NCBI GenBank assembly: GCA_017478965.1
Contig: JAFVCV010000038.1
Span: forward strand, 87,977-132,806
Reading direction: 5' to 3'
Length of the DNA stretch: 44,830 nucleotides
Origin: Ruminococcus sp.
GTDB taxonomy: Bacteria; Bacillota; Clostridia; Oscillospirales; Ruminococcaceae
How positions within the stretch are numbered: position 1 is the stretch's first letter; each line of letters begins with the position of its first letter. The notes below the pieces were generated by a model. That model had not been told where the DNA came from and made no database searches. It saw only the letters and a program-made list of their open reading frames with translations. This document shows positions 26,127-31,522 of this stretch, piece by piece. The position numbers and the translations under genes are program-made.

Positions 26127-26155
26127 ATTATACACCATGCGTCCCCGTTTGTCAA
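26127..26155 (-). promoter_or_regulatory. Sigma-A promoter of infC-rpmI-rplT
   Basis: Minus strand: TTGACA, 17-bp spacer, TATAAT, a full consensus match. It lies 17 bases past the stop of the M50 protease gene. Confidence 0.93.
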
Positions 26156-26171
26156 GGGGTATTTCAAAATT

Positions 26172-26810
26172 TTAGTCGATACTGCCCCAAACCTGCCCCT
26201 TGCCGGGGCCGTTTCTGAGCGATACGCACAGTTTTCCTGCATTTTCAGGCCCTCTTATGCTCTCCAGCTCATAGGCGCAGGCGAAAAGCAGGGTCAGCGA
26301 AAGACTGAGATTTCCCGCACCTCTGACGCTGCCCCACAGCAGTCCCATACTGCAAGCGAGCAGGAAGCCTGCCCTTACCGCTCTGGCAGCAGCTCCGCCG
26401 AAAAGACAGCACAGGAGCCTTCCGCCGTCGAAATAGCTCATGGGCAGCAGATTAAGGACGCCCAGGGCCATGTTGTAATAGGCCAGCTCGCCGAGCCCCG
26501 TCGCTCCTGCCGCCGCCGCTGCCAGAAGATTGGCCCCCGGCCCGGCCAGAAGTATGAGTATGTCTTCTCTGCTACCTCCCACGGCCTGCCCACGGGGCCT
26601 TATGCTTATGCCTCCGGCGTAGAAGGTCACTGTCCCCACAGGCCTCCCGAAAGCCCTCATCATCGCCAGATGCCCGCCCTCATGGACCAGACAGCAGCAT
26701 AAGGCCCCCATCACCGCCGCACTGCGCCCCGAAAGGCTCAGCAGCGCTATGAGGGCCAGAAAGCCGAAATCTGCCCTAAGAAGGGTCTTTCCTATCCTTA
26801 CCGTATACAT
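26172..26810 (-). CDS. M50 family site-2 protease-like membrane metallopeptidase
   Basis: 212 residues from the ATG at 26808-26810 (GGGTG five bases upstream; a TTG at 26840 is the alternative). The zinc motif HEGGH is at residues 43-47, inside the second hydrophobic stretch, and the third ligand is in NLLPMSYFDGGRLL about 75 residues later, the N-x-x-P-x(4)-D-G-G pattern of the SpoIVFB/S2P group. Several further hydrophobic segments follow. These proteases cut membrane helices of tethered regulators such as pro-sigma factors. It lies 47 bases after a VanW gene and two genes from a membrane-tethered sigma factor, a likely substrate (inference). GC-rich, small and without PDZ domain. Confidence 0.9.
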   Translation of the reverse strand: MYTVRIGKTLLRADFGFLALIALLSLSGRSAAVMGALCCCLVHEGGHLAMMRAFGRPVGTVTFYAGGISIRPRGQAVGGSREDILILLAGPGANLLAAAAAGATGLGELAYYNMALGVLNLLPMSYFDGGRLLCCLFGGAAARAVRAGFLLACSMGLLWGSVRGAGNLSLSLTLLFACAYELESIRGPENAGKLCVSLRNGPGKGQVWGSID

Positions 26811-26857
26811 GGCCTCACCCTGTATATCATATGCGGGCAAGGCAGTGTTAATTCTTA

Positions 26858-27697
26858 TCAGGCACCCTTGCTCATCATATCCACGATGTCAAGGTCACTG
26901 GTGTCGTAGCAGACTCTGGCATGGTTCTTTCTTATGAGCTTTTTCTCCACATGGTCTCCGGTGCGGCGGTCTACCTTGTCTCTGTAGACAAGACCGTTGC
27001 GGTATACCACCCCGTCCTCTTCCCTGGAGAAATACACGTCCTCGGCGGTGATGTGATATTTGTAGGGCTGCCTTTTGTCTGCCCTCAGCTCTCCGCAGAG
27101 GTACTCATCAGTGGTGTAGATGATGAGCTGATAGGTAAGGTCGGTGGTATTTTTGAACCTGTAGTCAAGATAGTTATACATTATCGAGGTGCCTGTGCCG
27201 AAGGGTATGGTGCGGTTGAAATCAGGGAAAAGGTCTATCTGGTCATGGTGGTGGTGCTCGGTTATCTCCATGTCGGAATGGAGTATCATCCAGTGGATAA
27301 GATTGGTCATCTGGCACATACCGCCGCCCAGGCCTGAGGAGGGGTGGTCGGAGAATATAGTCAGCCCTTCCCTGTATCCGGCCTTTTCCGTAAGGCTCCC
27401 CACCAGGTTCCAGAACGAGAAGGTCTCCCCGGGCCTGATTATGACGTGGTCGATCTTAGGCGCCGCCAGGGAAAGGTTCACGGCCTTGTTCTCCTGAAGT
27501 CTCATATCCACGTTCCCCAGCCGGCGGCGAATGAGAGAATTGTGTCTGTAGATCACATAGGGCAGCTCACCGCTGATCTTCTGTGAGGCAAAATGCCTTC
27601 TGTCAAAGAGATCTTTCAGCACCCTGAGGTACTCGCACTTCTTTTCAGATATCTTGTATGTCAGCGGGCAGAGCTCGCAAAAAAGCTTTCGTTTCAT
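26858..27697 (-). CDS. VanW family protein
   Basis: 279 residues from the ATG at 27695-27697; an ATG nine bases upstream lies only one or two bases from AAAGGA and is less likely. The VanW domain is plain from about residue 60: KIDHVIIRPGETFSFWNLVG, GYREGLTI, SSGLGGGMCQMTNLIHWM and a His-rich ITEHHHHD. The cysteine after GGGMC is family-typical. VanW genes occur in vancomycin-resistance clusters and widely in Clostridia, with unknown biochemistry but linked to the cell envelope. No signal peptide is visible and the N-terminus KRKLFCELCPLTYKIS looks cytoplasmic. It stands between the tethered sigma factor and the M50 protease; no other van gene is here. Confidence 0.9.
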   Translation of the reverse strand: MKRKLFCELCPLTYKISEKKCEYLRVLKDLFDRRHFASQKISGELPYVIYRHNSLIRRRLGNVDMRLQENKAVNLSLAAPKIDHVIIRPGETFSFWNLVGSLTEKAGYREGLTIFSDHPSSGLGGGMCQMTNLIHWMILHSDMEITEHHHHDQIDLFPDFNRTIPFGTGTSIMYNYLDYRFKNTTDLTYQLIIYTTDEYLCGELRADKRQPYKYHITAEDVYFSREEDGVVYRNGLVYRDKVDRRTGDHVEKKLIRKNHARVCYDTSDLDIVDMMSKGA

Positions 27698-27755
27698 TTT
27701 CTTCATTTCCTTTCATCGTTCTTCTCTCGTTTTCTAATATGTCACATATCCGTGG

Positions 27756-29465
27756 CTATCCCATGGCTCTTTCGGAAATATAGTTCCATTCGGCCACATA
27801 TTCCGGTGTCTTCCAGGACTGGTCGTAGAATCTTTCGTATTCGCTTTCGTCTGCGAACCATATCATCATCTCTGAGGTGAGATCAAGGTCTGAGATGTCC
27901 AGAGGCTCCTGCTCGGAAAGGTCGCCGCCCTCCTCCGGGGGATAGAGTCCCTCGTTTATCAGTCTGTGCCTGCTCTCGATCTCATCGATATCTTCCTGTT
28001 CCATATAATAGAATATGAGCCATCTCCTGCCGTCTATGATAACATCCGAGATGAAGTCGTAAATATACGGACTGGTCATTCCCCAGCTGGTGTTGCCGTT
28101 GCCGGCAGTGGCCCTTACCACCACTCTCCTGCCTAAGGCGCCGGCCAGCTCCCGGTTGGTCATTCCTACCCGGATATCATCGGAGATACTGCCGCTGTAG
28201 GTCATTGTGATGGAGTCCACATAGCCGTCGGTCACTCTTACGGAGCAGTCGGGGTCGTTGTCGAAATTTAGCACCAGCGCATCGTCATAGAACCTGTTGT
28301 AGACCTCTGAGATCGAATACCTGTCTCCGGCAACAGCGATAATGTCGTCCATGCTCGCCCCGGCCAGCTCGTCAATGGTAAACAGTGCGGGCAGCTCATC
28401 ATATTCTTCTGACCCGGCCTCTGAAGAGCTGCTCTGAGCTATGCTCACCGTGGCCTCGGCGGCCAGGCTGGAGTATTTCTCCTCGCCCAGCTTTATGACT
28501 GTGACCTGTGAAGAAGTCTCGCTTTCGCTCTCGGAAGAAGTATCATCGGTCTGCGAGGAGCTGTCCTCCGGCACGGTCATTTCATCGCCGCCGAAAAGCT
28601 CGGCCTCAGGTATGCTCTCTGCTGAGGAGCTTTCGTTCACTATCCTGTGAATGGCGCTGCTGTTGGGCCTTATGTCGCCCTTAGGGTCGCCGCCTTCCTT
28701 GTCAAGCATCCCCAGCCCTACGGGTACCCCCACAGCCATGACTGCTGCGGCGCAGACGCCTGCGGTTTTGACGGCAAAGGCCGAGACGGCTGCGGAGCTG
28801 CCTGTGATGACCCTTGCGCCGGCGGCATATTTCGGGCTGACTGTCCGCCTGAGCATTGTTCCCACTGGCACTGCCGACATGACCGCACCGCCCTTTGTGA
28901 GCTTGTCGATGCCCGCCTTCAGCTTTTTGCGGGCCTGGAAAAGCTTCTGCTTTGCGGCATTCTCGTTCATGCCCAGTGACTTTGCCACCTCCGCCACGCT
29001 CAGGTCATCGTAATAATAAAGTATGACCGCAGCTCTCATATCGGGCTTCAGTCCGTCTATAAGGGCCTTTAGCTTTTTTGCCACGTCCTTGTTCTCTGCA
29101 AAATCGTCCGGCAGCATCACTGGCTTGTTCAGGTTCACAAGCTCCATGGCCTGCTCCTGTTCTTCCTCGCTGTCAAAATAGCTGCTGCGTTTTTCCTGCC
29201 TGAAAAGATCGGCACATTTATGGTAGGCTATGCTGTGCAGCCAGGTCACGTAAGTCTCCGGCTTCTCCAGCTTCCTTATGCTCTCCATGGATTGCAGAAA
29301 AGCCTCCTGGGTTATGTCCTCGGCGGCGTCCTTTTTGCCCACGTTCTTTAAAACGAAGAAATAGAGCCTCTCGTAGTATTCACTGTAAAGCTTTTCAAAG
29401 GCTGCTCTGTTGCCGTGTTTTGCCCGCTCGACCGTGTGGATAAGTTCGTCAGTTTTCATCTTCAC
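27756..29465 (-). CDS. ECF-type sigma factor fused to a membrane helix and extracytoplasmic domain
   Basis: 569 residues, three times the normal ECF length. Residues 1-93 form sigma region 2 (AFEKLYSEYYERLYFFVL ... DAAEDITQEAFL), 125-188 region 4 (LKPDMRAAVILYYYDDLS, then VAKSLGMNENAAKQKLFQAR). A single hydrophobic helix at about 229-254 (SAFAVKTAGVCAAAVMAV, then GVPVGLGML) is followed by a Ser/Glu-rich linker and a globular part (about 350-569). That part has two segments reading like BLIP/SmpA-type repeats (LFTIDELAGASMDDIIAVAG; DDIRVGMTNRELAGALGRR). Topology would place the sigma domains inside and the tail outside. No separate anti-sigma gene is present. Start overlaps a small ORF by 17 bases. 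Confidence 0.85.
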   Translation of the reverse strand: MKMKTDELIHTVERAKHGNRAAFEKLYSEYYERLYFFVLKNVGKKDAAEDITQEAFLQSMESIRKLEKPETYVTWLHSIAYHKCADLFRQEKRSSYFDSEEEQEQAMELVNLNKPVMLPDDFAENKDVAKKLKALIDGLKPDMRAAVILYYYDDLSVAEVAKSLGMNENAAKQKLFQARKKLKAGIDKLTKGGAVMSAVPVGTMLRRTVSPKYAAGARVITGSSAAVSAFAVKTAGVCAAAVMAVGVPVGLGMLDKEGGDPKGDIRPNSSAIHRIVNESSSAESIPEAELFGGDEMTVPEDSSSQTDDTSSESESETSSQVTVIKLGEEKYSSLAAEATVSIAQSSSSEAGSEEYDELPALFTIDELAGASMDDIIAVAGDRYSISEVYNRFYDDALVLNFDNDPDCSVRVTDGYVDSITMTYSGSISDDIRVGMTNRELAGALGRRVVVRATAGNGNTSWGMTSPYIYDFISDVIIDGRRWLIFYYMEQEDIDEIESRHRLINEGLYPPEEGGDLSEQEPLDISDLDLTSEMMIWFADESEYERFYDQSWKTPEYVAEWNYISERAMG

Positions 29466-29592
29466 CGGCCTCCGTCTTCCATTTTTCTTCCAGTTTCTTC
29501 ATGGTTTCTTCCAGCTCCCCTGGCGTCAAGGCTGTCTCTTGCTGCATTTTCATCAATATCAGTTTTATAAGCTCGTCAAGTAAGATCTCCAT
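29449..29592 (-). CDS. Small 47-residue protein upstream of the tethered sigma factor
   Basis: Read from ATG 29590-29592, which has AGGA five bases upstream; a further in-frame ATG at 29646 lacks a ribosome binding site and would sit at the predicted transcript start. The peptide has an N-terminal amphipathic helix (MEILLDELIKLILMKMQQE) and a charged C-terminal helix (ELEETMKKLEEKWKTE), suggesting a helical hairpin or coiled coil. It overlaps the sigma gene start by 17 bases, so the pair is probably translationally coupled. It could bind the sigma domains, but that is a guess. Confidence 0.6.
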   Translation of the reverse strand: MEILLDELIKLILMKMQQETALTPGELEETMKKLEEKWKTEAGEDEN

Positions 29593-29654
29593 ATCTATCC
29601 TGCTTTCTTTATTTTCCTGCCGACCCGATAGCTGATACTTCTCCATTTGCTTAT

Positions 29655-29682
29655 TAGTCGCAGAACTTCCCGTTCCGGTTAT
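29655..29682 (-). promoter_or_regulatory. Candidate ECF-type promoter of the sigma factor operon
   Basis: Minus strand: ATAACC (in AAAAAGTTATAACC), 16 bases, CGACTA. An AAC-containing -35 with a CG-starting -10 at 16 bases is the ECF sigma pattern (compare TGAAAC-N16-CGTATA of Bacillus sigma-W/X). No sigma-A promoter with 17-bp spacer is seen here. This suggests the sigma factor drives its own operon. Confidence 0.5.
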
Positions 29683-29773: not shown

Positions 29774-31522
29774 TCAGTACATCAGCAGGTCGATGAGGTT
29801 GTCGTTCATGATATTCAGTTCCCTTGCCCCCACGGGGAAGGAACCTGAGATAAGGGCCTGCACATAGAGTATCAGTCCGTAGGTCCTGAGCTTTTCCTCG
29901 CTTTCTTCGCAGCTGAGCTTTTTTATCAGCTCGTTCTCGGTGTTGAGATAGAGCACCGCACCGGAGACCTCCTTGTATTCCTCCTCGAAGGCCTTGAGCA
30001 TATCCGTGAAAAGCTCCGGGCTTTCCGACAGTGAATGCTCGATATCCTTCTTTATCATGCCGTCCCGGCTTATACTGTAAAGGGTGGCCAGCTGAGGGGG
30101 TGAAAAGCTTTTTAGCTGCACCCGGCAGCCCTCCTCCTCCAGGGCAGCCGAGAACGCTTTCAGCATTTTCTCAAAGGCCGAGGGGTCCGAGGGGTCGTTC
30201 AGCATCCCCTCCACCATGTTCTCGTCCAGGGCAGTGACCTCACGGCTGTCAAGGGCGCCAAGCTTTTCCACCAGGGCCTTTTCGTGTACATACCCCACGT
30301 TTATCAGAAGCTCGCCCTGCTCGGCAAATACCGGCCTAAGCTGCCTGAAAATATCTATGTCAGGGGTGTATACCAGGCTCCCCTCATAGTTCCTGAGCTG
30401 CGCCCCGGTCAGCCCTCCCAGGCTGGTCTCAAAATCAAAATATGGCATGAAAATGTCGAAGAGCTTGTCGTTTTCCGCCGCCACCGATCTGAGCGCCACG
30501 CCATGGAGCCTTACTATCTTCTGCAAAAGCTCCGGATGCCTGAGGGCGGTCTGCTCCAGATAGTCCGATATGCACTCTGTAAGCTCCTCCCTGGCCTCGC
30601 TGAGCGCCTCGTCCTTGTAGAAGTCCTCCCTGGAGGCCGTAGGCCTGAGGATATCAGTGTTTATGTAGCACTGCATGAAAAAGGCCCATTCCGGCAGAAG
30701 ACTGCTGCCGTCCTCGGTCAGGAGCATATTTTTGAGATATATCCTGTGGCGGTTCTTCACGGCCGCTGATACCGTGTAGGGCAGTATGTATGCGATGCCG
30801 CTGAAATAGCCTTTCCCGCTTTCCAGCCTGAAGCAGTCCAGATGATCCGTATCGGTGCCGAAGACAGCCTTGCCGGCTCTGAGCATACCCTCCCTGGTGC
30901 CGTCGTTTTCCAGAAGCTCCGCATTGGCCATGAGCTTTATTCCCCCGCCGCTGCCTACAAAGACGGGATAGGGGATAGCGAGGCCGTAATAGCGAAGGCA
31001 TTTCAGGACCTCTCCGGCGGTGAAAAGTTCCTCATGGCCCGGGCAGCATTTTATGAAGATCTCGGTGCCGATATCCATTTCGCAGTCTATGCGGGAAACT
31101 CTGTAGCTGCCGTCGGAAAAGCCGTGCCATTCGTGGACAAGGTCCGGGGTCTTTACGGACCTGCTGCGAAGTATTATCTCATCGGTGACGATAAAGCAGG
31201 ACAAAAGCCCTATGCCGAACCGCCCGATAAAGCTCCCGCCGGCCCCTCTTTTCGAGGACTCTCCTATGACGGAGATGAATTTGTGTATCTCCTCCTCTGT
31301 AAGCCCGCTGCCGTTGTCCGTGAAGGTCAGCGACTCTCTGTCCCTGACCGTAACGTTCACCTGAGGGTCCGAAAATCCCTGCTGGAGCTCCTTCCTCATG
31401 CTAACGGCGTCAACACCGTTTTGCAGCAGCTCCCTCAGAAAGACCTTGGGTGTACTGTAAAGGTGATTGGAGAGAATGTCTATCATTCCCCCCAGGTTGA
31501 CGCTGAATTTATAGTCGCTCAT
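29774..31522 (-). CDS. HSP90 family protein, non-canonical HtpG-like
   Basis: 582 residues, somewhat shorter than HtpG (about 624). The GHKL ATPase domain is intact: LRELLQNGVDA (residues 29-39; catalytic Glu31 and Asn35), TFTDNGSGL (Asp69), IGRFGIGLLSCF (lid glycines), and a conserved-type arginine in TASREDF of the middle domain. The C-terminal third is divergent and lacks an MEEVD-type tail. This belongs to a separate, shorter bacterial Hsp90 group rather than true HtpG, judging from the N-terminus DYKFSVNLGGMIDILSNHLYS (split description). It has its own promoter and terminator and so stands alone. Clients are unknown. Confidence 0.88.
   Translation of the reverse strand: MSDYKFSVNLGGMIDILSNHLYSTPKVFLRELLQNGVDAVSMRKELQQGFSDPQVNVTVRDRESLTFTDNGSGLTEEEIHKFISVIGESSKRGAGGSFIGRFGIGLLSCFIVTDEIILRSRSVKTPDLVHEWHGFSDGSYRVSRIDCEMDIGTEIFIKCCPGHEELFTAGEVLKCLRYYGLAIPYPVFVGSGGGIKLMANAELLENDGTREGMLRAGKAVFGTDTDHLDCFRLESGKGYFSGIAYILPYTVSAAVKNRHRIYLKNMLLTEDGSSLLPEWAFFMQCYINTDILRPTASREDFYKDEALSEAREELTECISDYLEQTALRHPELLQKIVRLHGVALRSVAAENDKLFDIFMPYFDFETSLGGLTGAQLRNYEGSLVYTPDIDIFRQLRPVFAEQGELLINVGYVHEKALVEKLGALDSREVTALDENMVEGMLNDPSDPSAFEKMLKAFSAALEEEGCRVQLKSFSPPQLATLYSISRDGMIKKDIEHSLSESPELFTDMLKAFEEEYKEVSGAVLYLNTENELIKKLSCEESEEKLRTYGLILYVQALISGSFPVGARELNIMNDNLIDLLMY

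Follow-up and report, generated by a model that had tools for sequence, protein, structure and literature searches.

In many cases an extracytoplasmic function (ECF) sigma factor is restrained by an anti-sigma factor that is a membrane protein of its own. The gene considered here encodes an ECF sigma factor of 569 residues that appears to carry its own membrane anchor; it lies in a 44,830-nucleotide stretch of Ruminococcus sp. DNA (assembly GCA_017478965.1, contig JAFVCV010000038.1, forward-strand positions 87,977 to 132,806), referred to below as the window, in a row with genes for a 47-residue micro-protein (P47), a VanW-family protein and an M50 protease. The general idea of a membrane-tethered, one-chain sigma factor is known, and the kind is little studied. 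Among described examples, PMC8999054 treats IutY, ECF48, ECF52 and ECF53. IutY of Pseudomonas putida (ECF243) combines a sigma factor and a transmembrane extension in one protein and is freed by Prc and RseP (PMC8999054); its extension is a fused iron-starvation anti-sigma factor, whereas the extension of the window protein has no match to an anti-sigma family. ECF52 SCO4117 of Streptomyces coelicolor places a sigma factor, a transmembrane region, a low-complexity linker and an extracellular domain in one chain, and autoregulation has been suggested for it (PMC5826349). The window protein would share this order, with a sigma part, a probable transmembrane region, a linker and a probable outer domain, whereas the zinc-finger anti-sigma domain and the carbohydrate-binding module of ECF52 were not found in it. 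Table 2 of PMC8999054 further lists ECF262, with the Ruminococcus albus model SFB89493.1, in the group 'Others' of sigma factors with regulatory extensions. Like the window protein, ECF262 is an ECF sigma factor of this genus that carries a regulatory extension and for which no anti-sigma factor is known, and the two likely belong to the same family; the table entry from which ECF262 is known here describes neither a promoter nor a sensor domain, and it mentions no mechanism and no small partner encoded upstream.

The new points at this locus are P47, a sensor domain that also occurs on lipoproteins and has a link to VanW, and a variant in which the sigma factor is fused to an FtsX permease and accompanied by an ATPase. 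In the portions covered of the literature on fused or tethered sigma factors, sigma-FtsX fusions and Ruminococcus sigma and anti-sigma factors, to which the founding ECF classification does not belong, neither P47 nor the shared sensor domain nor the fusion of sigma to FtsX was described, and PMC10766802 contributed nothing to the subject. Our reading, to which we give somewhat better than an even chance, is that the window encodes a one-component, membrane-anchored ECF sigma factor serving the cell envelope, autoregulated and with P47 as its probable regulator. As far as sequence can indicate, this reading is carried by the gene layout, the linkage of P47 and the selection acting on it, the promoter motif, and the occurrence of the tail domain on lipoprotein-like proteins.

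Results

By domain content the 569-residue protein is an ECF sigma factor, with sigma region 2 (PF04542, 8e-11) and region 4 (PF08281, 2e-14) and no family listed for region 3 in the Pfam scan; it scores 90.5 bits against the 42.9-bit cut-off of NCBIfam TIGR02937. A search of 100 related genomes with residues 1-260 (E 1e-20 or better) matched in 31 of them and gave, with the window locus, 65 rows; removal of four ordinary sigma factors (209-218 residues) left 61 fused proteins of 343 to 1201 residues, some of the shortest being broken or cut by contig ends. The sigma-fusion layout exceeds chance because it is repeated in 60 other proteins, two of them in the source genome itself (2.69 Mb, 55 contigs), where they are encoded by a divergent gene pair on another contig. 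A hydrophobic stretch follows sigma region 4 across the family, the short member L112 having none there (handles beginning with L, G and C denote our loci, genomes and contigs); in the window protein it spans residues 236-254, with a mean Kyte-Doolittle value of 2.05 over 19 residues. A preliminary description of the locus had proposed a sigma factor fused to a membrane helix at about residues 229-254 and to an outside tail. The recurrence of the layout supports that arrangement, as does the distribution of the tail domain described below; the helix itself stands as a hydrophobic stretch with a marginal score in the window protein.

At E 0.001 the 61 proteins matched 16 Pfam families, among which there was no FecR-type anti-sigma extension of the IutY kind, and scans of the window protein and the 61 members at the same threshold found no zinc-finger family of the ECF52 kind. 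FtsX was matched in seven members, MacB_PCD in three, and the extracellular-type domains Big_2, LRR_5 and CAP in one each. A midpoint-rooted tree of the sigma domains, with 60 rows (L112 was too short) and some long branches, divides into two clades of 42 and 18 rows with support of 100/95, and all 42 rows of the larger clade come from this genus. Thirteen related loci were also taken from a named collection; 12 are from Ruminococcus, R. albus among them, and six of these coincide with loci of the 60-gene set, while the remaining one is a Hydrogenedentota sigma factor.

P47, in place of the M50 protease, is the conserved neighbour of the fused sigma factor. An iterative profile search of 12,464 small open reading frames (ORFs; 7,281 from the fused-sigma loci and 5,183 from the M50 loci and the window) recovered 39 P47 ORFs at E < 0.05, every one directly upstream of a fused sigma gene (39/61), with no match elsewhere in the set. 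A narrower distance rule counted eight of the 39 as off-site, since the sigma ORF had been given an initial start further upstream. P47 precedes 38 of the 42 rows of the Ruminococcus clade, which makes it the best-conserved neighbour, and 0 of the 18 rows of the other; it is also upstream in 11 of the 12 named Ruminococcus loci. The preliminary description had listed this helical protein, yet had given it no role. Two of the four exceptions in the clade, L095 and L101, have P47 matches in a genome-wide search, one with an internal stop. That search located P47 at 45 places in the source genome and 21 of the 100 relatives, all of this genus: 39 at fused sigma genes, one before a contig-cut sigma gene, one before a 60-residue sigma fragment and three where no sigma gene was found. 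The sixth off-site match, a weak one (E 0.004), falls within a canonical anti-sigma-like protein, in its N-terminal part; the gene for this protein follows that of an ordinary sigma factor. The match lies in L208:3636-5767 (G027), within a family of R. albus sigma/anti-sigma-like pairs built of a short N-terminal part, a helix and a long outer domain. At L203 (G019, C54), the start of a P47 behind a sigma-type promoter runs in frame into a different domain and may be a deletion remnant.

The P47 and sigma frames overlap, often by 14 bases. The ratio of non-synonymous to synonymous change (pN/pS) was defined in 13 of 16 P47 pairs, where it ranged from 0.00 to 0.66; the other three pairs had no synonymous change and one non-synonymous. 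Judged from these ratios, P47 is under purifying selection, and its amino acids matter, because pN/pS is at or below 0.28 in 10 of the 13 informative pairs. P47 is a probable detached regulator.

An ECF-type promoter motif, TAACC-N15/16-CGWCTAA, lies upstream of P47 in many relatives. The strict pattern TAACCN{14,16}CGWCTAA has three exact matches in the source genome against none in the reversed control, one at the window operon and two in tandem before the gene for a 384-residue protein. The latter (L244:6942-8096, C30) has one N-terminal hydrophobic helix, 'TAVIVTAGVPTGIFLM', which by eye resembles the sigma helix 'AAVMAVGVPVGLGML'. A looser pattern, TAACCN{14,17}CGWC, proves nothing alone, with three matches in the window against 1.4 expected. 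When position was taken into account (end relaxed to CGWCNAA, within 400 bases upstream), the pattern marked 12 of the 43 sigma genes in the P47 clade and none of the 18 in the other; among 371 control ORFs from these loci it preceded a single one, which encodes the lipoprotein of genome G014 that carries the tail domain. Several relatives have the promoter in multiple copies: R. albus KH2T6 has five in tandem, about 66 bases apart, before the L070 sigma gene (G027:C10:306389-306679), and G005, G011 and G002 have two or three. These observations suggest that P47, sigma and VanW form an operon that would be autoregulated through its ECF-type promoter.

Predicted targets come chiefly from G014, in which the pattern has 14 matches against none in the reversed control. 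Besides sigma genes, the ORFs after these sites encode an L,D-transpeptidase that bears a peptidoglycan-binding domain, two dockerin proteins, one of which is a VanY carboxypeptidase, and, in addition to the lipoprotein with the tail domain, two proteins that are lipoprotein-like; two sites near a contig end have no ORF. Such targets would point to remodelling of the wall and surface, in a genus known for fibre degradation, and with the occurrence of the tail domain on lipoprotein-like proteins they support the cell-envelope role that had been proposed for the locus. In other genomes, sites precede ORFs read as an ABC-type ATPase (ATP-binding cassette, ABC), a transposase, an XRE-type regulator, a NADH-dehydrogenase subunit and small ORFs, and these may be chance.

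The tail domain of about 190 residues is common to near relatives and occurs in two copies in the protein of L190. The tail diverges far faster than the sigma part: 12 of 13 relatives with 60-71% sigma identity have no blastp tail match at 1e-5, and the last 220 residues as query gave one weak other match in the 100 relatives. Because of this divergence the search yield was poor, and homology became visible only through an alignment of near relatives and a profile. The profile also matches non-sigma proteins whose N terminus is of lipoprotein type, one each in two genomes of R. albus (L230 and L232, E about 1e-70) and one in G014 (L066, 5e-21), and weakly a protein of G037 (5e-5) with an N-terminal helix and no lipobox. 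Two more non-sigma matches are a fragment in the window itself and an ORF just behind the 343-residue sigma ORF of G017, where a fused gene has seemingly been broken in two (L073 and L040, C155). In G014, the sigma domains of L066 and L071 are 93% identical and the tails 47% alike over 150 residues, and L071 has no detected P47. The best indication that the tail would lie outside the cell is the presence of its domain on lipoprotein-like proteins, together with Big_2, LRR_5 and CAP in relatives. Derivation of the tail from a canonical anti-sigma factor was considered and rejected, since neither blastp at E 1e-3 nor phmmer at 1e-4 showed any similarity. A comparison with PDB profiles gave a non-significant lead toward a BamE/SmpA-like fold: of 16 matches, 12 were to BamE and two to 'Small protein A', all 14 with E values of 1.2-1.8, and the best match was another protein at E 0.33.

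The association with VanW is narrower than the preliminary description implied, and part of it stands. VanW homologues are found near none of the 60 other fused sigma genes (E 1e-4) and at one of the 12 named Ruminococcus loci, L190, where P47, sigma and VanW follow in window order with overlaps of 4 bases each. In both R. albus genomes, the gene for the tail-domain lipoprotein stops 13 bases before VanW, so that the tail domain stands beside two of eight close VanW orthologues; it is absent at the other six and at 12 more distant VanW loci. Tail domain and VanW are thus together in four loci (the window, L190 and the two R. albus lipoprotein loci), twice on a sigma factor and twice on a lipoprotein. 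At L286 (G027, R. albus KH2T6, C15), genes for a tail-domain lipoprotein, VanW, an ordinary ECF sigma factor and a probable anti-sigma factor stand in a row. The window VanW does not reach the cut-off of the NCBIfam equivalog for glycopeptide-resistance VanW (205.9 against 365 bits).

The preliminary description had also assigned the fused sigma factor an intramembrane protease of its own, the M50 enzyme encoded next to VanW, and this part found no support. The stretches fetched around the 60 other fused sigma genes (at least 2 kb of downstream sequence in 50, at least 4 kb in 45) were queried at E 1e-4 with VanW, the M50 of the window, the second M50 of the genome and the protease that we name RseP-type. 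No homologue of the window M50 was found by this search or by a motif scan (0/60), which matched in 38 of 40 M50 loci as a control; the second M50 and the RseP-type protease likewise had none (0/60). The named Ruminococcus sigma loci lack M50 as well (0/12), and 15 kb fetched around the divergent fused-sigma pair of the source genome holds neither M50 nor VanW. Seen from the protease, a homologue of the window M50 occurs in one copy each in 78 of the 100 relatives (E 1e-6), including some, such as G003 and G007, that have no fused sigma match at E 1e-20. Among the 40 of these 78 loci that were fetched, none has a fused sigma or VanW gene in the surrounding 7 kb or so, as far as the contig extends; at a single locus an ordinary sigma gene stands some 4 kb off. 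M50 is instead regularly linked to other genes, most often one read as a B12-binding radical-SAM protein (18/40) or as uvrA (13/40), and it stands ahead of the infC operon, as in the window, in 3/40. Both results, fusion homologues regularly lacking a nearby M50 gene and M50 regularly linked to other genes, are outcomes that the preliminary description had itself named as refuting its proposal. The window M50 is thus a neighbour of VanW and not a member of a conserved set. Its appearance is that of a housekeeping enzyme, which may belong to the SpoIVFB kind.

Seven relatives (L081, L082, L083, L085, L086, L088 and L089; 1117-1201 residues, from five genomes) have an FtsX permease fused behind their sigma part. 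All seven genes are preceded by P47; since the segment that corresponds to the window helix probably does not cross the membrane in these proteins, P47 seems tied to the sigma part and not to the anchor. A gene reading as an ABC ATPase follows in L081, L082, L083 and L085, with a 4-base overlap in three and 91 bases off in L083; none follows at L086 and L089, and the contig of L088 ends too soon. BceAB-type and MacB-type ABC transporters are flux sensors that signal through a kinase. The sigma-FtsX operons resemble these in pairing an FtsX-type permease with an ATPase and differ in that the permease is fused to a sigma factor. If they work as they look, transporter activity would be linked to transcription with no intervening kinase.

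Discussion

In the mechanism we favour, sigma regions 2 and 4 would lie inside the cell, the helix at about residues 234-254 would cross the membrane, and the Ser/Glu-rich linker and tail domain would be outside. P47, sigma and VanW would be driven by their own ECF-type promoter in positive autoregulation. P47 is encoded in the overlapping frame and would be made just before sigma; its most likely action is to bind the cytoplasmic sigma part and keep it inactive as long as the outer domain has not met its signal, an activator role also being possible. By analogy with IutY, active sigma would probably be freed by regulated intramembrane proteolysis through a general RseP-type protease and not the neighbouring M50. 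The predicted targets would be cell-surface proteins; in one relative they include a lipoprotein with the same domain, which could give feedback.

Several observations weigh against this scheme. P47 went undetected at 22 of the 61 fused sigma proteins, including the whole 18-row clade, so it is dispensable for the fusion layout as such, and the promoter pattern is missing at that strictness from 31 of the 43 P47-clade genes. Across 29 genomes the strict pattern is not enriched (41 matches against 37 in the reversed control, 20 of the 41 lying by position upstream of fused sigma genes); its use as a genus-wide regulon finder was dropped, and support was drawn only from its position relative to sigma genes and from two genomes, in which it has 14 and 3 matches against none. 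The helix is marginal in the window protein, where the best segment, 234-254, scores +0.66 on our own approximation of an insertion scale. In the FtsX fusions the matching segment probably does not cross the membrane once, given the usual FtsX topology, because FtsX proteins begin inside the cell. The window P47 has no Pfam or NCBIfam family. That P47 is a known anti-sigma domain was hinted at by the weak N-terminal match noted above and was rejected: compared by hhalign with the N-terminal parts of 22 Ruminococcus anti-sigma-like proteins (two identical), it gave a probability of 2.7% and P 0.017, which is not significant. Among 20 P47 members, NCBIfam matched RsiV for one at E 0.09, and unrelated families did better (best 0.0014).

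The marginal score, together with the internal Pro and Gly of the stretch and the FtsX-fusion segment, also invites the view that residues 234-254 do not span the membrane and that the tail is cytoplasmic. We regard this as very improbable: the tail domain occurs on three proteins with lipoprotein-type N termini, relatives carry Big_2, LRR_5 and CAP, and 48 of the 61 members score at or below zero on the insertion scale, seven of these being FtsX fusions scored at the first helix of the permease itself. A dedicated role for the neighbouring M50, cutting the sigma helix as SpoIVFB cuts pro-sigma-K, would suit its position on the same strand, 17 bases past VanW and perhaps on one transcript in this genome, as well as its intact catalytic motifs; it could also act in trans from anywhere, given its presence in 78 of the relatives. 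It resembles SpoIVFB in size, and its radical-SAM-like neighbour recalls a spoIVFB-type neighbourhood. M50 is nonetheless missing from all 60 other fused sigma loci, the 40 M50 loci hold no fused sigma or VanW, and relatives with no fused sigma match keep it; on this linkage evidence a dedicated protease was rejected, and we consider the model improbable. A more natural candidate for cleavage of the helix would be the other long M50 protein of the source genome, which is the best match to Peptidase_M50 there (2e-62).

It is also conceivable, at well under even odds, that there is no proteolysis and sigma works while tethered, a signal altering its conformation or the hold of P47. In the FtsX-fused relatives sigma, with its P47, has stayed joined to a transporter of several spans, for which a single cut is less natural as a switch, and ECF41 and CorE work by conformation (PMC8999054); on the other side, the same source has IutY released by Prc and RseP and expects proteolytic release for ECF52. 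Similarly, P47 could be a co-sigma factor or activator, like RsoA with SigO, or could serve mainly in translational coupling. The overlapping frames and the lack of similarity between P47 and known anti-sigma domains are compatible with such roles, whereas coupling alone would not account for the low pN/pS values; we take this alternative as tenable, at well under even odds.

Short two-helix anti-sigma factors such as those of NepR-EcfG and CnrY offer a comparison for P47, and nepR stands directly upstream of ecfG. P47 is, like them, a small helical protein of similar size; those systems have either a free sigma factor or a membrane-bound anti-sigma factor, unlike the probably anchored sigma factor of the window. 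We entertain, as a tentative idea, a split anti-sigma system in which the membrane and sensor half has been fused to sigma and the sigma-binding half is P47, the whole being plugged into a lipoprotein-like sensor domain in the window or into an FtsX permease with its ATPase in relatives, where sigma would be a direct flux sensor. A detached domain of this sort fits the account in PMC8103513 of soluble anti-sigma factors arising by the parting of the anti-sigma domain from membrane helices. With sensing, anchoring and transcription in one chain and one well-conserved micro-protein beside it, the locus would offer a small system for learning how a tethered sigma factor stays off and turns on.

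Gene organization of the window

The four-gene arrangement of the preliminary description is borne out, with all genes on the minus strand where it had placed them and the domains of the sigma, VanW and M50 proteins recognized by Pfam and NCBIfam (Table 1). The alternative ATG of the sigma gene agrees with the start in the sigma genes of relatives. The M50 gene has a TTG start and an in-frame ATG 30 bases further in; its product matches Peptidase_M50 at 3.5e-9 (36.8 bits against a 27.2-bit cut-off) and retains the motifs HEGGH and NLLPMSYFDGG.

Table 1. Coordinates of features at the fused sigma locus, numbered from the first base of the window.
Feature	Position	Strand	Remarks
P47, 47-residue micro-protein	29449-29592	-	Start of sigma gene overlapped by P47 ORF
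Fused ECF sigma factor, 569 residues	27756-29465	-	GTG start gives 569 residues; ATG at 29459 gives 567
Parts of the sigma protein (residues)	sigma2 26-93; sigma4 131-182; hydrophobic helix about 234-254; Ser/Glu-rich linker; C-terminal domain about 361-569
C-terminal tail domain of sigma ('GMTxxxLxxxLG ... DGRxW')	27759-28385	-	Alignment and profile matches in non-sigma proteins
VanW-family protein, 282 residues	26858-27706	-	49 bases past sigma stop; PF04294, 4e-37
M50 protease, 222 residues	26172-26840	-	17 bases past VanW; PF02163
ECF-type promoter TAACC-N16-CGACTAA	29654-29681	-	Ahead of P47-sigma
Sigma-A-type promoter TTGACA-N17-TATAAT	26127-26155	-	Between M50 and infC, facing infC; 12/12 consensus positions

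Downstream of M50 are ORFs read as infC, rpmI, rplT, an RNA methyltransferase, dprA and topA. An Hsp90-family gene (29774-31522; NCBIfam PRK14083, over the cut-off) adjoins the operon.

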